From: Pycnococcus provasolii | Taxonomy: Eukaryota > Chlorophyta > Pseudoscourfieldiophyceae > Pseudoscourfieldiales > Pycnococcaceae | Assembly (NCBI GenBank): GCA_938743325.2 | Contig: OW568884.1 | Span: 434,001-498,000, forward strand | DNA: 64,000 bases | Direction of reading: 5' to 3' | Part shown: piece after piece, positions 44,040 through 50,124 of the stretch | How the letters are laid out: every line of letters begins with the position of its first letter | Numbering within the stretch: position 1 is the first letter of the stretch | The notes under the pieces: generated by a model | Told to the model about the DNA's origin: nothing | Seen by the model: only the letters and a program-made list of their open reading frames with translations | The model's database searches: none | Translations under genes and position numbers: made by a program

Positions 44040-47000
44040 TCATGGTGTTGTAGTTGAGAGGCCTCCTTTCGCCACAGCAGTCATGACATCAGCGGGGCAT
44101 CGCGCTCCGTCCGCAAGGCGGTAAATGGCATCAAGATGCTCCTGCAATTGCCTCGCCTCGCTGAGCACTGATGTCATGTCCTGAGGTTCGGAAGGTTCGG
44201 TAGGTGTAGCACGTGCAGCAATAAGTGCCCAGTCGGGACTCGATCTTCCAACGGCGGCGGGAAGTGCCGTCATAAACCCTGGCGATGGCACTTGCTCAAA
44301 GCCGCTTGAGCCTACTGTCGTCAATGGCGCAGCTGCTGCTCGTGGCGATTCGAATGGCGCAGCTGCTGCTCGTGGCGATTCGAATGGCGCTGGTACGAGA
44401 GGTGCTACTGTTGGTGCAGGTAGTGGTGGCTGTGGCTCAGAATTCAGCCGATTTTGCAGCCACGTCATGTTGCTGCTGCCACCGGCTGCTCCCACCGCAT
44501 CTGCCACCTTGTGCAGTCTCTCATGAAGGCCTAGTGCCTCGTCCGCCGCCGCGGTGGCGGTCGCCTCCGCTGCCGACAGTCGCACACGGAGCCTTGCCTT
44601 CTCCTCCTCCGCTGCAAAAGCTGCGGCGATACGTGCTGATCGCTCTTCCTCAACAGCAATGCGGCGCTTCACATTCTCTTCCTCCAAATGAAGCGCTAAT
44701 CTCGCCCGCGTCGCAATCTCAGTCGCCGCCATGCCCTCTGCCTTGGATGCACGTTCTATCGCGGCCGCTTCTCCAGCACGCGCTGCATTGATCTCCTCTT
44801 TCGTCAACGCAAGAGCAGCCTCGAGCTCACCTACTCGTGCTAGTGGCGCGTTCGCCGCCGCCGCCGCGCGTGCTGACTGTGATCTAGCATCTGCAAGCTC
44901 TCGCTCACGATCACGCAGTGCATCTAAGGCGCTCTTCGCCCGCGCCTCGGCACTTTCGGCGCGAACACGCGAGGCAGAAAGTTCGATGGCATCACCCTCC
45001 GCCTGGCGACGTGCCGATGCAAGTGCCTCCTCCGCGGCTGTGGTAGCTGCATTTGCCGCCGCTAGCTCCTCGGTGCGAGCCTCGGCATCTGACCCCGCAC
45101 AGGCGAGCGCAGCGCGTAGCGTCGCGCGCTCTCGTTCGCCTTCCTCCGCCGCCGCCGCGGCAGCGCGCTGAAGCTTTGCCAGCTCATCCTTAGCCATTTG
45201 CAAACCCGACTGTAGGCCGACCCGCGCATCTTCTAGGCCTTCGGCTAAGTTTCTCTGCTCGTGCTGCGCCTCCAGGAGCTGCGCCTGCAGCCTCTGCACC
45301 TCCTCCTCTGCAGACTCGCATCTGGATTTCCACTGCTCCATGCTCGACGTGGTATTTTGCAGGCCGGAGTGCGCATTCGCTAAGCCTTCGGCCAAGTTGC
45401 TCTGCTCGCGCTGCGCCTCCAGGAGCTGCGCCTGCAGCCTCTGCACCTCCTCCTCTGTCGACTCGCATCTGGATTTCCACTGTTCCGTGCTTGCCGTGGC
45501 GTTGGCCATGGCCATCTCCGCCTCTCGTCGCACGCTTGTAATCTCTGCCATTGCAGTATTACGCATGTGCTCCATGTCCGCCTTATTTGCTTCTATTGTG
45601 TCGGCGCTTCGCATTGCTCTTCCTTCCATCTCAGCCAAGCGCTTGCCAAGCTCCTCGAGCTCCGTCTCCGCGCGTTCCCACTCGGACTCGGCGTTCTTGG
45701 CACGGGATTCCGCCTTAGCACGCAATCCTGACTCGCGGCTCAGAGCATCTGCCGCCTTGCGCGCCTCATCTCCGTGTGACGATTCTAGAACTTTCGCGCG
45801 TGCATTCGTATCGTGTAGCTCTGCGTTCAGGTCGCCACACCGCGATGATGCCTCCGCCGCCGCCGATTCCGCCGATTCTATCTTGTTCCTCGCGCTCCGC
45901 TCCAACTCCTCGTACGCCTCCATGGTTGCCTGCAGTTTCTTCGCGAGTGCAGTGCGCTCGGCTTCCACCTCGGCAAATTTCGTCGCGAGCTTCGCACGCT
46001 CGCGCTCTTCTTCCGCGAGCTTGCCCTCGGTCCTTCGCATCTTTCCCGAAATATCCTCCGCGAGCTTCTCCGCCGCCTCACGTAAGCTGACCGCATCTCG
46101 AATACGTTGCGCTTCCGCAGCGGAAGCTGCCGCAGCCTCAACCTCGCGCTGCGCCCACGCCGAGCGCGCGCTATCGAGTTCCGCCGCGGCACGTCTCAAA
46201 GCTTCGTCCTTCTTCTCCGCCTGATTGCGAGCTATACGCTCCTGCTTCACCGCCTGCGAGGCAACCTCAGCCAGGCGCGCCGCTGCGTCTTTATGCCTTT
46301 CAGACTGCACAGCAGTAAGCGCCACGCGCCATCTCGATTTGGCTCGAGCGTGCTTTGCGCTTTCGCGTAGTCTGGCGACCATCGTGTTGGTGAAGGAAGG
46401 TGAGACTGGCGAAGCGGGAACGTCGTCCTCCTGCTGCGTATGGTGATTGTAAGGCTTCTGCGCCATCAAGATGTCCTGCTTGCGTCGCGAGTCGAGAATG
46501 TCCTGCCGCATACGCGTCACCTCACGCTCCACCTGCGAGCGCGCAGCTACCGTGGCTGCGGACGTGGCAAGTCTCCACCGAATCCTGGCAATCTCGCTCG
46601 TCTTCTGCTGCAGCAACACCTTGCCTGTGCTCACCGTCTCGTTAACGCGAGCGAAGTTCTTCACCTTCTTGGCACGCGCGGCGAAACGAAGGGTGGAGAG
46701 CGTCTCTGCAAAGTGCCTCGTCGCAGGCGCGACGTTGCAGATCACGGTAGTCTTGGCATTCCCGCCCAGGCTCGGTGCGAGGATGCGTGTCAGCCTGGAG
46801 TCGCGAAACGGTATGTGCGTCGCCGGCGTTCCCTCCGTGAGCTTGTTGATGACAGTCCCGAGCGTGAGAAGCGACTTGTTGATGGACGCACCCTCCTTAA
46901 GCCTGTCCCCGCTCGTCTGCGCCTTGCGCACGCGCTCGCTTCCTGCGAGGTCGACGAGCGTGAGCACTCCAAATCGCGTTCCCCCACGCGCATTCCCGCT

Positions 47001-47765
47001 CTTGGCGCTGGACGCGCGTATCTGCGACTCAACCACCATGCGAAAGATGCTGTGGCTTCTGCTTGACTGTTTGTTCATTGCCGTCTCGCCCGTGGCTCTG
47101 AACTTGCTTCCTCTGTCCATGAGAGCGAGCGCGGCGTCGGCGTCGTTGACGATCTGTTCGCGCAGGCCGGCAACGTACACGCCTCTTTCCGCCTCCTCTC
47201 TGATATTGAGCTTGTGTTTCGCGGTTGGGTCGAGCAGGTCGCGCAGTTCCTCGTCGTAGATTTCGAAGTAGCTGACCCGCACGAGCACCTCTCGCAGCGA
47301 CTCGTCTGCCAATTGGTGTGACTTGTCGAAGACGTCGCGCACAGCGCGCGGTATGATGCCTGGGTCCTGCGCGTTTCCCGTCATGGTGTGCGTTTTCCCC
47401 GACGACGTTTGTCCGTACGCGAACACGGTCCCGTTGAATCCCAGAACGACGGATTCGGCGACATGTTTCGCACGAACGCGGTACACGTCGTCGTTTGATG
47501 ACGAGGGTGGGAAGACGCACTCGAACGCAAAGTCATGTTTATCTTGTGGCGACAACAGAGAAGACACCTCATGAGGCTGAGGCTCATGGGCCGGAAGCAC
47601 GCGGTGGTCAGCAGTCGCAAGCCATGCTAATTTCTCAGAATCGTAATTAAAATCCGGGCTTAAATACTGTGATGATTCTCCATGAAACTCCGCCGACGAG
47701 GGAGGCGGACGCAGACGAACACTCACCCATAGAGACTCACAAGACGCTTCCACGGATGACGCCAT
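44040..47765 (-). CDS. Kinesin-7-like motor with long coiled coil
   Basis: A 1241-aa N-terminal-motor kinesin. The motor domain (about residues 10-375) has the P-loop GQTSSGKTHTM, switch I NKQSSRSH, switch II LVDLAGSE and neck region KKVKNFARVNE. The overall sequence, including the FAYGQTSSGKT and KLNIREE segments, is closest to kinesin-7/CENP-E relatives. Residues 420-1100 are a nearly continuous Ala/Glu-rich coiled coil. It contains a 49-aa tandem duplication around QWKSRCESTEEEVQRLQAQLL. Near the C terminus a 10-aa unit, PFESPRAAAA, is repeated twice. I start at the first ATG. It likely acts in mitosis or organelle transport. Confidence 0.9.
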   Translation of the reverse strand: MASSVEASCESLWVSVRLRPPPSSAEFHGESSQYLSPDFNYDSEKLAWLATADHRVLPAHEPQPHEVSSLLSPQDKHDFAFECVFPPSSSNDDVYRVRAKHVAESVVLGFNGTVFAYGQTSSGKTHTMTGNAQDPGIIPRAVRDVFDKSHQLADESLREVLVRVSYFEIYDEELRDLLDPTAKHKLNIREEAERGVYVAGLREQIVNDADAALALMDRGSKFRATGETAMNKQSSRSHSIFRMVVESQIRASSAKSGNARGGTRFGVLTLVDLAGSERVRKAQTSGDRLKEGASINKSLLTLGTVINKLTEGTPATHIPFRDSRLTRILAPSLGGNAKTTVICNVAPATRHFAETLSTLRFAARAKKVKNFARVNETVSTGKVLLQQKTSEIARIRWRLATSAATVAARSQVEREVTRMRQDILDSRRKQDILMAQKPYNHHTQQEDDVPASPVSPSFTNTMVARLRESAKHARAKSRWRVALTAVQSERHKDAAARLAEVASQAVKQERIARNQAEKKDEALRRAAAELDSARSAWAQREVEAAAASAAEAQRIRDAVSLREAAEKLAEDISGKMRRTEGKLAEEERERAKLATKFAEVEAERTALAKKLQATMEAYEELERSARNKIESAESAAAEASSRCGDLNAELHDTNARAKVLESSHGDEARKAADALSRESGLRAKAESRAKNAESEWERAETELEELGKRLAEMEGRAMRSADTIEANKADMEHMRNTAMAEITSVRREAEMAMANATASTEQWKSRCESTEEEVQRLQAQLLEAQREQSNLAEGLANAHSGLQNTTSSMEQWKSRCESAEEEVQRLQAQLLEAQHEQRNLAEGLEDARVGLQSGLQMAKDELAKLQRAAAAAAEEGERERATLRAALACAGSDAEARTEELAAANAATTAAEEALASARRQAEGDAIELSASRVRAESAEARAKSALDALRDRERELADARSQSARAAAAANAPLARVGELEAALALTKEEINAARAGEAAAIERASKAEGMAATEIATRARLALHLEEENVKRRIAVEEERSARIAAAFAAEEEKARLRVRLSAAEATATAAADEALGLHERLHKVADAVGAAGGSSNMTWLQNRLNSEPQPPLPAPTVAPLVPAPFESPRAAAAPFESPRAAAAPLTTVGSSGFEQVPSPGFMTALPAAVGRSSPDWALIAARATPTEPSEPQDMTSVLSEARQLQEHLDAIYRLADGARCPADVMTAVAKGGLSTTTP
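45241..45482 (-). repeat. 147-bp duplication in kinesin coiled coil
   Basis: The segments starting near 45241 and 45388 are about 90% identical over roughly 95 bp and sit exactly 147 bp (49 codons) apart, keeping both the reading frame and the heptad phase. Confidence 0.85.
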
Positions 47766-48138
47766 ATCCACCTTTTAGAAAGTTGTGTGGATGAAGAATG
47801 ACGCGAGAAACGAAAGTATACTTGAATTAAAAAAAGTGAGTCCGACGTGGTGACTGGTGAGGTGAGGTGGCTCTCATGGAGGTGGCCAGGTGAAAAAGTG
47901 ACTTCAGGAAGTACGGCGCCCATTTATAAAGGCTTGCGTGCTCACTCATCGCTCATCGACGTGGTCAAGACTCCGCGTCTCCGCCGGACTTGCGTGCTCG
48001 CTCATCGACGTGGTCAAGAGTTAAGACTCGGTCGGACTTGCACGCCGGACGTCGCATCAGTCGCATCATCAGCATCGCATCATCAGCATCGCCGCATCGC
48101 TCCAGTTAATTGTAAGCTCGGCGTGGTCGTGTCTGCCA
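47766..48138. other. Divergent region between kinesin and EF-hand/TIR-like/TPR genes
   Basis: Near 47933-48040 a unit of about 50 bp with cttgcgtgctc and atcgacgtggtcaagact is repeated twice. It is followed by catcagcatcgcatcatcagcatcg repeats before the TPR gene. Confidence 0.55.
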
Positions 48139-50124
48139 ATGTCCTTGGCGAGTTCGGATACAGCACGCTTGCTCTTTGAGCAAGTCGACACGAACGGCGA
48201 CGGCGTTCTATCCGCATACGAAGTACGTGCGTGGCTTGAGCTGAACGGGGAAGAGTCGCTCGGAAACTCGCTCTTCTCTGCTTTGGATACGGATGGCGAC
48301 GGTGTCGTGTCACTGAAGGAATTCTCAGACGGGTTCGATAAGGTGATGAAGCATAACAAGAAAGATTTGCCTCCGCCTTCAAACGACCAAGGATTCCCGC
48401 GAAGCGGTGTACGACTTGCGTGGCTGAGACGATTTGTGGACTCATGCAAGGGCAAGAAGTACACGTGGTCTGCGAAGGACTTTCTCAAGGCGGAGCATGG
48501 AGGAGGGGGAGATGCCGTCGTGCACGTGTCGACTGACAACTTGCAGGAGCACCGCGCGCGAATGAACGCTGCAGGCAAAGACGGCGACGGTAAGCAAACC
48601 ACTGTACAGTACGCGGATATCCCGTTCGACCTAATGACGACGAACGACGTGTGCTTTGGTATCGTCAAGCCTGCAACCGAACACGTCAAAACGTCTTACG
48701 CCGAAATGCTCAGCAACACAACAGAACCTGGTGAAGTAAACGACGCGACTGTGTTCGTGTCGCACGCCTGGAAGTACACATTCGTGAACGTCGTCGACGC
48801 ACTCAGCAGTCTCTCCGAGAATGCGTTCGTGTGGTTCGACGTGTTCACCGTCAACCAACACGCGAGCTTGCAAGTGCCGCCCGACTGGTGGTTCACGACG
48901 TTCAAGGAGGCTGTCGCGAGTATCGGACACACCGTGCTGGTATTGATGCCTTGGGACGACCCCATCCCGCTGACGCGCGCGTGGTGCATTTGGGAGATTC
49001 TGAGTACGATTGATGACGGCAAGGCGAAACTCGAGATTTGCTTGCCGGCGGTGGAGCAGAAGGCGTTCGCCGACTTCTTGGTAGAGAAGGGATCAGATAA
49101 GGTGATTGTGAAGATGGTCGGCATGGACGTGCAGCGTGCCGAGGCGTGGAAGAAGGAGGACCGTGACGCCATTCTCAATGCGGTAAAAGTGTATCCAGGT
49201 GGTGCATCAGAGGTGAACAAACGCATCAAAGATCAGATGCGAAGCTGGGTCGTTGAGAGTGCGAAACGTGCGTTGGATACGCTGGATGCGAAGACACGAG
49301 CGACATCTAAGCTGTTGATGGACGTCGCGAGCTTGCTCCATCAGCAAGGCAAGTACGCCGACGCCGAGGCACTGTACCGCGAGGCGCTCGATGGTAAACG
49401 CCGCGAGCTCGGCGATGCGCATCCGAGTACGCTGGACTCCATCGGCAACCTCGCGGAGAGTCTTCGTGAACAAGGCAAGTACGCCGACGCGGAGCCGCTG
49501 TACCGCGAGGCGCTCGACGGGTATCGTCGCGAGCTGGGCGATGCGCATCCAAATACGCTTATGTCCATCAACAACCTCGCGATCTTGCTCCAGAATCAAG
49601 GCAAGTACGCCGACGCGGAGCCGCTGTACCGCGAGTCGCTCGATGGTAAGCGTCGCGAGCTCGGCGATGCGCATCCGAGTACGCTCGCGTCCATCAACAA
49701 CCTCGCGAACTTGCTCAATAAGCAAGGCAAGCACGCCGAGGCGGAGCCGCTGTACCGTGAGGCGCTCGACGGTATGCGTCGCGAGCTCGGCGATGCGCAT
49801 CCAGACACGCTCACGTCCATCAACAACCTCGCGATCTTGCTCCAGAATCAAGGCAAGCACGCCGACGCCGAGCCGCTGTACCGCGAGGCGCTCGACGGTC
49901 GTCGTCGCGAGCTCGGCGATGCACATCCACAGTACGGCGATACGTGCTACAATTACGCAGGATTTCTCTTGAAGCAAGAGAAGTTCAGCGAGGCTGCTTC
50001 TTACTACGACCAAGCGGCGCATGCATACGAGCAAAGCTACGGCGCAGACCACGAGGAGACGCGTAAAGCACGTGCAATAGCTGATGCGTGCCGCAGCGTC
50101 GGCAGCGAGGCCGCAGACGCCTGA
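48139..50124 (+). CDS. EF-hand pair / TIR-like domain / tandem TPR protein
   Basis: A 661-aa soluble protein with three modules. Two canonical EF-hand loops, DTNGDGVLSAYE (17-28) and DTDGDGVVSLKE (50-61), should bind calcium. A central domain (about 200-330) has the layout of a TIR fold: VFVSHAW (205-211), a strand NAFVWFDVFTVNQ, then IGHTVLVLMP and RAWCIWEIL. Here E286 in WCxxE matches the catalytic Glu of TIR NADases. From residue about 400 there are five nearly identical 42-aa kinesin-light-chain-type TPRs (ADAEPLYREALDGKRRELGD) plus a sixth, degenerate one. This order, calcium sensor then effector-like domain then TPR, resembles signalling or immune receptors. The TIR assignment is by pattern, not alignment. 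A TGTAA signal is at 50139-50143. Confidence 0.8.
   Translation: MSLASSDTARLLFEQVDTNGDGVLSAYEVRAWLELNGEESLGNSLFSALDTDGDGVVSLKEFSDGFDKVMKHNKKDLPPPSNDQGFPRSGVRLAWLRRFVDSCKGKKYTWSAKDFLKAEHGGGGDAVVHVSTDNLQEHRARMNAAGKDGDGKQTTVQYADIPFDLMTTNDVCFGIVKPATEHVKTSYAEMLSNTTEPGEVNDATVFVSHAWKYTFVNVVDALSSLSENAFVWFDVFTVNQHASLQVPPDWWFTTFKEAVASIGHTVLVLMPWDDPIPLTRAWCIWEILSTIDDGKAKLEICLPAVEQKAFADFLVEKGSDKVIVKMVGMDVQRAEAWKKEDRDAILNAVKVYPGGASEVNKRIKDQMRSWVVESAKRALDTLDAKTRATSKLLMDVASLLHQQGKYADAEALYREALDGKRRELGDAHPSTLDSIGNLAESLREQGKYADAEPLYREALDGYRRELGDAHPNTLMSINNLAILLQNQGKYADAEPLYRESLDGKRRELGDAHPSTLASINNLANLLNKQGKHAEAEPLYREALDGMRRELGDAHPDTLTSINNLAILLQNQGKHADAEPLYREALDGRRRELGDAHPQYGDTCYNYAGFLLKQEKFSEAASYYDQAAHAYEQSYGADHEETRKARAIADACRSVGSEAADA
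49348..49977 (+). repeat. Five 126-bp TPR-coding tandem repeats
   Basis: Units begin ggcaagtacgcc at 49348, 49474, 49600, 49726 and 49852, exactly 126 bp apart (42 codons). They differ mainly at a few positions on the TPR surfaces, so they are recently duplicated or homogenised. Confidence 0.95.

Follow-up and report, generated by a model that had tools for sequence, protein, structure and literature searches.

The window, a stretch of 64,000 nucleotides of Pycnococcus provasolii DNA, contains on its plus strand an open reading frame (ORF) at positions 48139 to 50124, whose product joins an EF-hand pair, a family-specific N-domain, a TIR/HET-like domain and an array of tetratricopeptide repeats (TPRs) of the kinesin-light-chain (KLC) type. 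Judged from sequence comparison, this gene is probably one receptor of a diversified algal recognition repertoire, in which the TPR array would be the sensor, the TIR/HET-like domain the output and the EF-hand pair an input or a means of localisation. The repertoire looks like the immune-type recognition receptors known in fungi. Most work on intracellular receptors that diversify rapidly and have TIR/HET-type outputs has been done in fungi, plants and animals. The features of the gene are listed below; amino acid (aa) positions refer to its product, and pN/pS denotes the ratio of nonsynonymous to synonymous change.

48139..50124, plus strand: ORF of 661 aa comprising the EF-hand pair, N-domain, TIR/HET-like domain and TPR array (translation and Pfam).
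48160..48348, plus strand: EF-hand pair, aa 8-70, with calcium loops at 48187-48222 and 48286-48321 (Pfam EF-hand_6, 1.7e-10; recurs N-terminally in other members).
48391..48732, plus strand: family-specific N-domain, aa 85-198, ahead of the effector domain and found also in the NACHT-WD40 branch (alignment A1; pN/pS).
48736..49119, plus strand: TIR/HET-like core, aa 200-327 (hhalign of the family profile against canonical TIRs with shuffle and reversal controls; pN/pS 0.13).
48754..48771, plus strand: FVSHAW motif, aa 206-211 (aligned with TIR 'FISH').
48832..48858, plus strand: WFDVFTVNQ motif, aa 232-240 (aligned with TIR 'VWLDV').
48976..48996, plus strand: RAWCIWE motif, aa 280-286, with the codon of E286, the candidate catalytic Glu, at 48994-48996 (aligned with 'R-YCLKE' of canonical TIRs).
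49306..49935, plus strand: five KLC-type TPRs of 42 aa with hypervariable groove positions (repeat comparison).
49936..50061, plus strand: divergent sixth TPR (sequence; six TPR_12 stretches in Pfam).

The two canonical EF-hands and the KLC-type TPR stack of the original prediction were both recovered with Pfam. The calcium loops, DTNGDGVLSAYE (aa 17-28) and DTDGDGVVSLKE (aa 50-61), are 12 residues long with ligands at positions 1, 3, 5 and 12, and the TPRs matched TPR_12 in six stretches (1.8e-76) as well as TPR_10. No NACHT or NB-ARC nucleoside triphosphatase (NTPase) was seen between the effector domain and the repeats among the 25 of 35 Pfam families listed for the whole protein, nor in the scans of aa 169-374 and aa 85-374.

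Branches of one gene family

The genome (32.3 Mb in 46 contigs; contigs are labelled C1 onwards and loci L0xx) was searched with aa 169-374 as the query, and 43 matches were obtained at E<=0.01, the gene itself, fragments and degenerate copies being counted. What had been put forward as a new architecture of a single protein proved to be part of a paralogous repertoire with TPR, NACHT-WD40 and NACHT-ankyrin (NACHT-ANK) members. The TPR-type branch comprises 12 genes, that of the window and L032-L042, all with TPR C-termini; across the entire query stretch the window gene and ten paralogues showed 82-100% identity and L042 59%. A more distant TPR member, L045, has an altered front of the domain with R-x-WC-x-x-E intact, L046 contains the domain but gave no Pfam match, and L051 is a two-domain member. 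Degenerate members include one on C4, a fragment, and one on C41 that contains three TGA codons. L045 (C41:36500-44000) was also seen to have 13 TPR_10 stretches and a C-terminal SUMO-like/ubiquitin-like domain (Rad60-SLD, 9.8e-19), and at L039/L065 (C44:31000-39250) a single frame combines a canonical TIR_2 domain, helicase-like matches (ResIII, 1.1e-8), the TIR/HET-like domain and TPRs.

The NACHT branch, searched with its own domain, gave 52 matches; in 15 of them the aligned part came to 176 or more of the 215 residues, with 88-100% identity. Of these 15, 11 belong to open frames 1431-1593 aa long, one to a 913-aa frame and three to truncated partners beside a complete gene. A NACHT match was present in all 11 long frames and in the 913-aa frame (E 1e-5 to 0.002, three above the curated cut-off), and WD40 segments were present in all nine long NACHT genes read (L047-L050 and L054-L058, with L054 and L058 cut). 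The two scanned in full, L047 and L049, had 14 WD40 stretches each and matched NPHP3_N at 1.2e-15 and 1.5e-15. On C7, L069 (at least 2076 aa) joins an EF-hand pair, a TIR/HET-like domain 59% identical to that of the NACHT-WD40 branch, NPHP3_N (5.8e-8) and 24 ankyrin stretches. The NTPase that marks NOD-like receptors (NLRs) and other signal-transduction ATPases with numerous domains (STAND) is found in the sister genes L047, L049 and L069. According to alignment A1, the TPR and NACHT-WD40 branches have both the core and the N-domain in common.

The segments ahead of the repeats are constrained. In a comparison of the 11 closest TPR-type genes, pN/pS was lowest in the TIR/HET-like core (0.13) and reached 0.25 in both the N-domain and the stretch from the core to the TPRs; the effector and the N-domain are under purifying selection. 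The extreme N-terminus differs from gene to gene. Four of the 12 TPR-type genes (that of the window, L035, L036 and L041) start with the EF-hand pair, four (L033, L037, L040 and L042) have an MGC or MGG-type sequence, and the remaining four (L032, L034, L038 and L039) have neither. The MGC or MGG-type sequence of L033 and L037 does not coincide with the frame's first Met. In the nine WD40-type genes read, an MGC-type Met was found in seven and the EF-hand pair in two (L049, and L058 on C44). MGC marks N-myristoylation and palmitoylation. When the EF-hand pair of the window gene was searched against the genome, 10 of the 12 best matches lay within family genes or beside family fragments (the frames on C33 and C15 were unread). 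The EF-hand pair is an exchangeable N-terminal module.

Two further observations concern the WD40 branch. Three loci, L049 (C3:1024000-1033999), L050 (C23:429500-439499) and C23:394433-399738, have a second, 5'-only gene copy in the opposite orientation, with inverted arms of 2.1 kb (L049) and 2.8 kb (L050) at about 99.8% identity. Such arms could recombine and thereby invert the NACHT-WD40 part; an error of assembly is an alternative. Seven near-identical degenerate domains (at C2:427679, C3:90647, C4:540166, C5:564283, C13:175197, C15:10115 and C31:246928) break at domain residue 64/65, mostly with TAG, which would fit amplification of a pseudogene or else an intron common to all of them.

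Relatives were also sought outside the genome. None were confirmed in three pattern-based scans of viral contigs; three phage records matched, the best place listed for each being the TPR region. The canonical TIR from C13, which served as the sole query against plasmids in place of the window protein, gave no match, and neither did aa 1-387 with the PADLOC defence-system models. A pattern-based scan of a prokaryote genome collection gave 47 stretches, of which one was confirmed. This is L052 (JAIYDP010000031.1), a TIR/HET-like and TPR protein, a relative at 40% identity, from a pond metagenome-assembled genome labelled Verrucomicrobiaceae. A bacterial origin was set aside, since a neighbouring ORF on the contig looks eukaryotic (cysteine-rich and zinc-finger-like, by eye) and the contig probably comes from a contaminating protist.

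Variable positions in the putative sensor repeats

The TPRs were cut out by a pattern built on the GKYADAE segment, which misses repeats lacking that segment. It gave 74 repeats from 13 genes, and omission of the 13 first-of-array repeats, including the sole repeat of L042, left 61 internal TPRs from 12 genes. All 61 are distinct, and the framework is mostly near-invariant. The variation is concentrated at positions 2, 12, 9 and 13, with 9-13 different amino acids each and 2.6-3.0 bits, and the number of repeats also differs among the paralogues. Variable concave, ligand-facing positions of TPRs in general are 2, 5, 9, 12, 13, 33 and 34 (PMC1261162), so the site of the variation is the one expected whenever a set of TPRs binds ligands. 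The unusual feature is the contrast between the variable groove and the near-frozen framework.

At positions 2, 9, 12, 13 and 31, a set picked post hoc, pN/pS was 0.98, in comparison to 0.35 elsewhere (30 disjoint nearest pairs). These values show release or diversification, short of proving positive selection. Several points weigh against a sensor of the proposed kind. For the set chosen a priori (2, 5, 9, 12 and 13) pN/pS was 0.78 against 0.41 elsewhere and did not exceed 1, variation was also found outside the a priori groove at positions 31 (11 amino acids), 41 (2.2 bits) and 24 (1.7 bits), and the TPR branch has no NTPase domain as a switch.

It is very improbable that the protein is a KLC-like cargo adaptor or scaffold with calcium regulation and without any role in recognition. 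The TPRs are of the KLC type, and the neighbouring ORF at 44040-47771 on the minus strand (1243 aa) resembles a kinesin motor protein when its translation is judged by eye; in such a scaffold one would hardly look for 61 internal repeats that all differ, mainly at the groove, on a near-fixed framework, for varying repeat counts, or for an effector that is joined to NACHT-WD40 and NACHT-ANK as well.

For the WD40 branch, the WD motif served as the sole anchor for 104 repeats from eight genes, of which the four lacking H at position 2 were discarded; positions 29-34 remain constrained by this anchor. An earlier count (89 repeats of 107 SASYS segments) was left unused because its pattern itself fixed many framework positions. 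The most variable positions were 5, 23, 4, 7 and 25 (2.3-3.4 bits), whereas the residues flanked by them were kept (V6 in 99 and D24 in 100 of 100 repeats). The pN/pS was 1.57 at positions 4, 5, 7, 23 and 25 and 1.42 at 5, 7, 23 and 25, in comparison to 0.28 and 0.37 elsewhere (45 disjoint pairs).

In the HNWD genes of Podospora the strongest sites are codons 7, 9, 25 and 27, flanking the conserved 8 and 26 (PMC1805685), and a later numbering gives 10, 11, 12, 14, 30, 32 and 39 (PMC12222747). The algal positions 5, 7, 23 and 25 around 6 and 24 have the same spacing (+2, +16, +2). With the register set from the conserved V and D, the random chance that the top five of 42 positions all fall in the fungal seven is about 2.5e-5 (21/850,668). 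Diversified repeats of the HNWD kind are present in the WD40 branch; the TPR type shows the hypervariability but not a pN/pS above 1. Only 8 ankyrin repeats of L069 fitted the repeat pattern, compared with 24 Pfam stretches, too few for a claim of hypervariability.

Neutral turnover of tandem repeats combined with gene duplication, with relaxed exposed positions and no recognition function, would account for the degenerate and truncated copies and for a pN/pS near 1 at the TPR groove, where TPR families generally vary most (PMC1261162). We regard this as improbable, in view of the WD40 sites, where pN/pS reaches 1.42-1.57 at positions coinciding with those of the fungal HNWD, and of the purifying selection on the effector and the N-domain.

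Kinship of the middle domain

The three motif strings and E286 were found where the original prediction had placed them (aa 206-211, 232-240 and 280-286). In the search with TIR profile hidden Markov models that it had proposed, no Pfam TIR family matched aa 169-374 or aa 85-374, so that its TIR call was, as it had said, based on pattern. At the level of the family the TIR kinship was supported (hhalign 94.9%), whereas neither Pfam nor the TPR-type subset alone upheld it. For the comparison, ten of the 18 canonical TIR_2 matches of the genome were fetched, and nine of them formed alignment A3; the most divergent one, L063, which carries RTWVQMEV where the other fetched TIRs have xC-x-x-EL, was omitted. 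The 18 matches (E<=4.6e-4, 16 above the curated cut-off) include several in frames of more than 1000 aa, and in L001 (C13:738390-741500) a canonical TIR is followed in one frame by a P-loop GTPase-like segment (GNTGAGKST, by eye).

Alignment A4 consisted of ten TIR/HET-like cores including L052, with L045 and L046 omitted. A4 aligned with A3 at a score of 51.7 over about 96 columns, in comparison to 12.1 for reversed A3 and 11.1 for a NACHT decoy; the highest score among 100 column shuffles was 22.7. With L063, L045 and L046 restored to the alignments (then 10 TIRs) the score rose to 57.5 (95.96%). All members minus the TPR type scored 50.5 (94.6%), the WD40 type 29.4 (39.8%) and L051 alone 37.4 over 20 columns (77.8%). 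Against the PDB (177,635 sequences) the best match of profile A4 was the TIR 3h16 (E 0.03), which we take to be a Paracoccus TIR. The A3 TIRs themselves match solved TIRs including NAD+ hydrolases, with 25 PDB sequences at <=1e-3, at least one of them differently named. A Paracoccus TIR is one of the two best HHpred matches for the fungal HET domain (PMC4986451).

In the A4/A3 alignment FVSHAW lies over FISH, VWFDV over VWLDV and R-A-WCIWE over R-P-YCLKE, which puts E286 on the TIR Glu column, at the Glu of 'YCLKEL', as had been predicted. This Glu is catalytic in TIR NADases. The Glu of [WY]C-x-x-E was kept in all 14 rows of A1, whose frames were initially chosen by a pattern with the Glu motif among three alternatives, and in all ten rows of A4. 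Invariant in A1, where the 13 other copies are 24-91% identical to the window protein, were F, S, Q, R, W, C and E, and across the ten A4 rows including L052, S, D, N, Q, R, W, C and E. This invariance together with the 43 genome matches indicates that the motifs are not due to chance.

The evidence that weighs against a TIR-like domain is of several kinds. No Pfam TIR or HET match was found in the window protein (the whole protein, 25 of 35 families listed; aa 169-374, E<=10; aa 85-374, E<=1). The TPR-type subset together with L052 reached 3.9% and a score of 21.3 against the TIRs, inside the shuffle range; the significance of the TIR kinship depends on the WD40-type and two-domain members, and the domain of the window gene is TIR-like via its clear kinship to those members and not alone. 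When the longer profile A1 was used against the PDB, a TFIID subunit came first (E 0.24) and 3h16 second (0.33). The N is altered in L045 and L046, and L045 also differs at H, W and D, both genes being outside A4. HET (PF06985) matched in one of 14 members, L051 (E 0.013), no better than unrelated families (0.0052 and 0.0073). A fold search with the second of two AlphaFold models gave nothing at 0.001 and no TIR among the best 50 of 1191 matches. Both models were obtained from only two input sequences, and their mean predicted local distance difference test (pLDDT) values of 41.9 and 45.6 are too poor for judging the fold; the beta-alpha order of the first (41.9) would fit the five-strand flavodoxin-like TIR fold, in a model too uncertain to count.

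As the L051 match is on a par with those of unrelated families in the same scan, HET membership is unsupported. L051 stayed below the HET cut-off (14.4 bits against 22.5; E 0.048 for the whole protein), its second domain aligning with HET profile positions 30-64, and a Pfam HET search of the genome, in which the positive controls were silent too, gave no match and is no evidence of absence. The motif order of the domain resembles that of HET. The most suitable reading of the middle domain is that of a TIR/HET-like effector, for which 'HET-like' may be as fair a name as 'TIR-like'.

Proposed action and relation to known receptors

In the proposed mechanism the TPR array acts as the sensor, whose groove would bind variable ligands. 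Each paralogue would probably bind a different ligand, since the groove varies on a near-fixed framework; the ligands could be pathogen-derived or self (allorecognition). Ligand binding or clustering would then activate the TIR/HET-like domain, which, going by homology and the conserved polar residues, would most likely act on NAD+ and so signal or kill the cell. The EF-hand pair may provide calcium-dependent docking or a trigger. Calcium docking in place of a constitutive membrane anchor seems the likeliest role, because paralogues carry the MGC-type acylation motif instead. In the sister genes the same N-domain and effector stand before NACHT-WD40 or NACHT-ANK, the NLR layout.

Output by NAD+ cleavage rather than by homotypic assembly is a tentative proposal, to which we give somewhat less than even weight. 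In the rival, rather unlikely case the TIR/HET-like domain would lack enzymatic activity and signal as an adaptor through homotypic assembly, with E286 in a structural role. As of 2023 it had yet to be shown that HET domains act as enzymes (PMC10197012), HET-HET recruitment was suggested by Dyrka in 2014 (PMC4986451), and some of the polar motif residues are altered in two members outside A4; on the other hand, invariance of the polar S, D, N, Q, R and E in the ten A4 rows would exceed the usual need of a docking surface.

Among known systems, the sister genes resemble the HNWD genes het-d, het-e and het-r of Podospora anserina in their order of TIR/HET-like domain, NACHT (NPHP3_N) and WD40, in having highly similar repeats and in the same hypervariable positions (PMC1805685, PMC12222747). 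They differ in the algal host, in the EF-hands or MGC motif and the extra N-domain, and in an effector that lies outside the Pfam HET model except for one chance-like match; the window gene moreover has no NACHT and carries TPRs instead of WD40. With canonical TIRs (PF13676/PF01582) the domain shares the motif order and the Glu in [WY]C-x-x-E, but it has family-specific segments before and after the core and no direct Pfam match. Fungal NB-ARC/NACHT-TPR NLRs likewise have highly similar TPRs that vary on the concave face (PMC4986451), whereas the window gene has EF-hands and no NTPase between the effector and the TPRs.

Part of this picture is established. Hypervariable WD40, TPR and ANK repeats in fungal NLRs and the kinship of HET (PF06985), as a remote homologue, with TIR are already published, and HET homologues are known in stramenopiles, haptophytes, green algae and others (PMC4986451); exon shuffling has been described in brown-algal candidate receptors (PMC11378527). 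No published description of the present architecture in an alga was found in the literature searched, which held few subscription papers and preprints. As far as that literature goes, what is new is the algal repertoire, the alternation of EF-hands and lipid anchor, a TPR branch that lacks an NTPase, and the specificity positions that the WD40 repeats share with those of fungi.

Elsewhere in the genome the chlorophyll a/b-binding family gave 51 matches, which marks the host as an alga. On C31, 12 light-harvesting matches of equal score fall into two groups, at 133-143 kb and 360-367 kb.

The fullest interpretation, which we hold as possible and short of probable, is a multi-branch algal repertoire with one TIR/HET-like, probably NAD+-consuming effector, three sensors (hypervariable TPR, hypervariable NACHT-WD40 and NACHT-ANK) and two exchangeable inputs (EF-hands or a lipid anchor). 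Its WD40 positions would be those of fungal incompatibility receptors, and its NTPase-less TPR branch would possibly be triggered by calcium. A compact algal genome of such design would make the origin of the repertoire, as well as algal defence and self-recognition, directly testable, and mutating the conserved Glu would be a clean way of asking whether HET-like domains have NADase activity.

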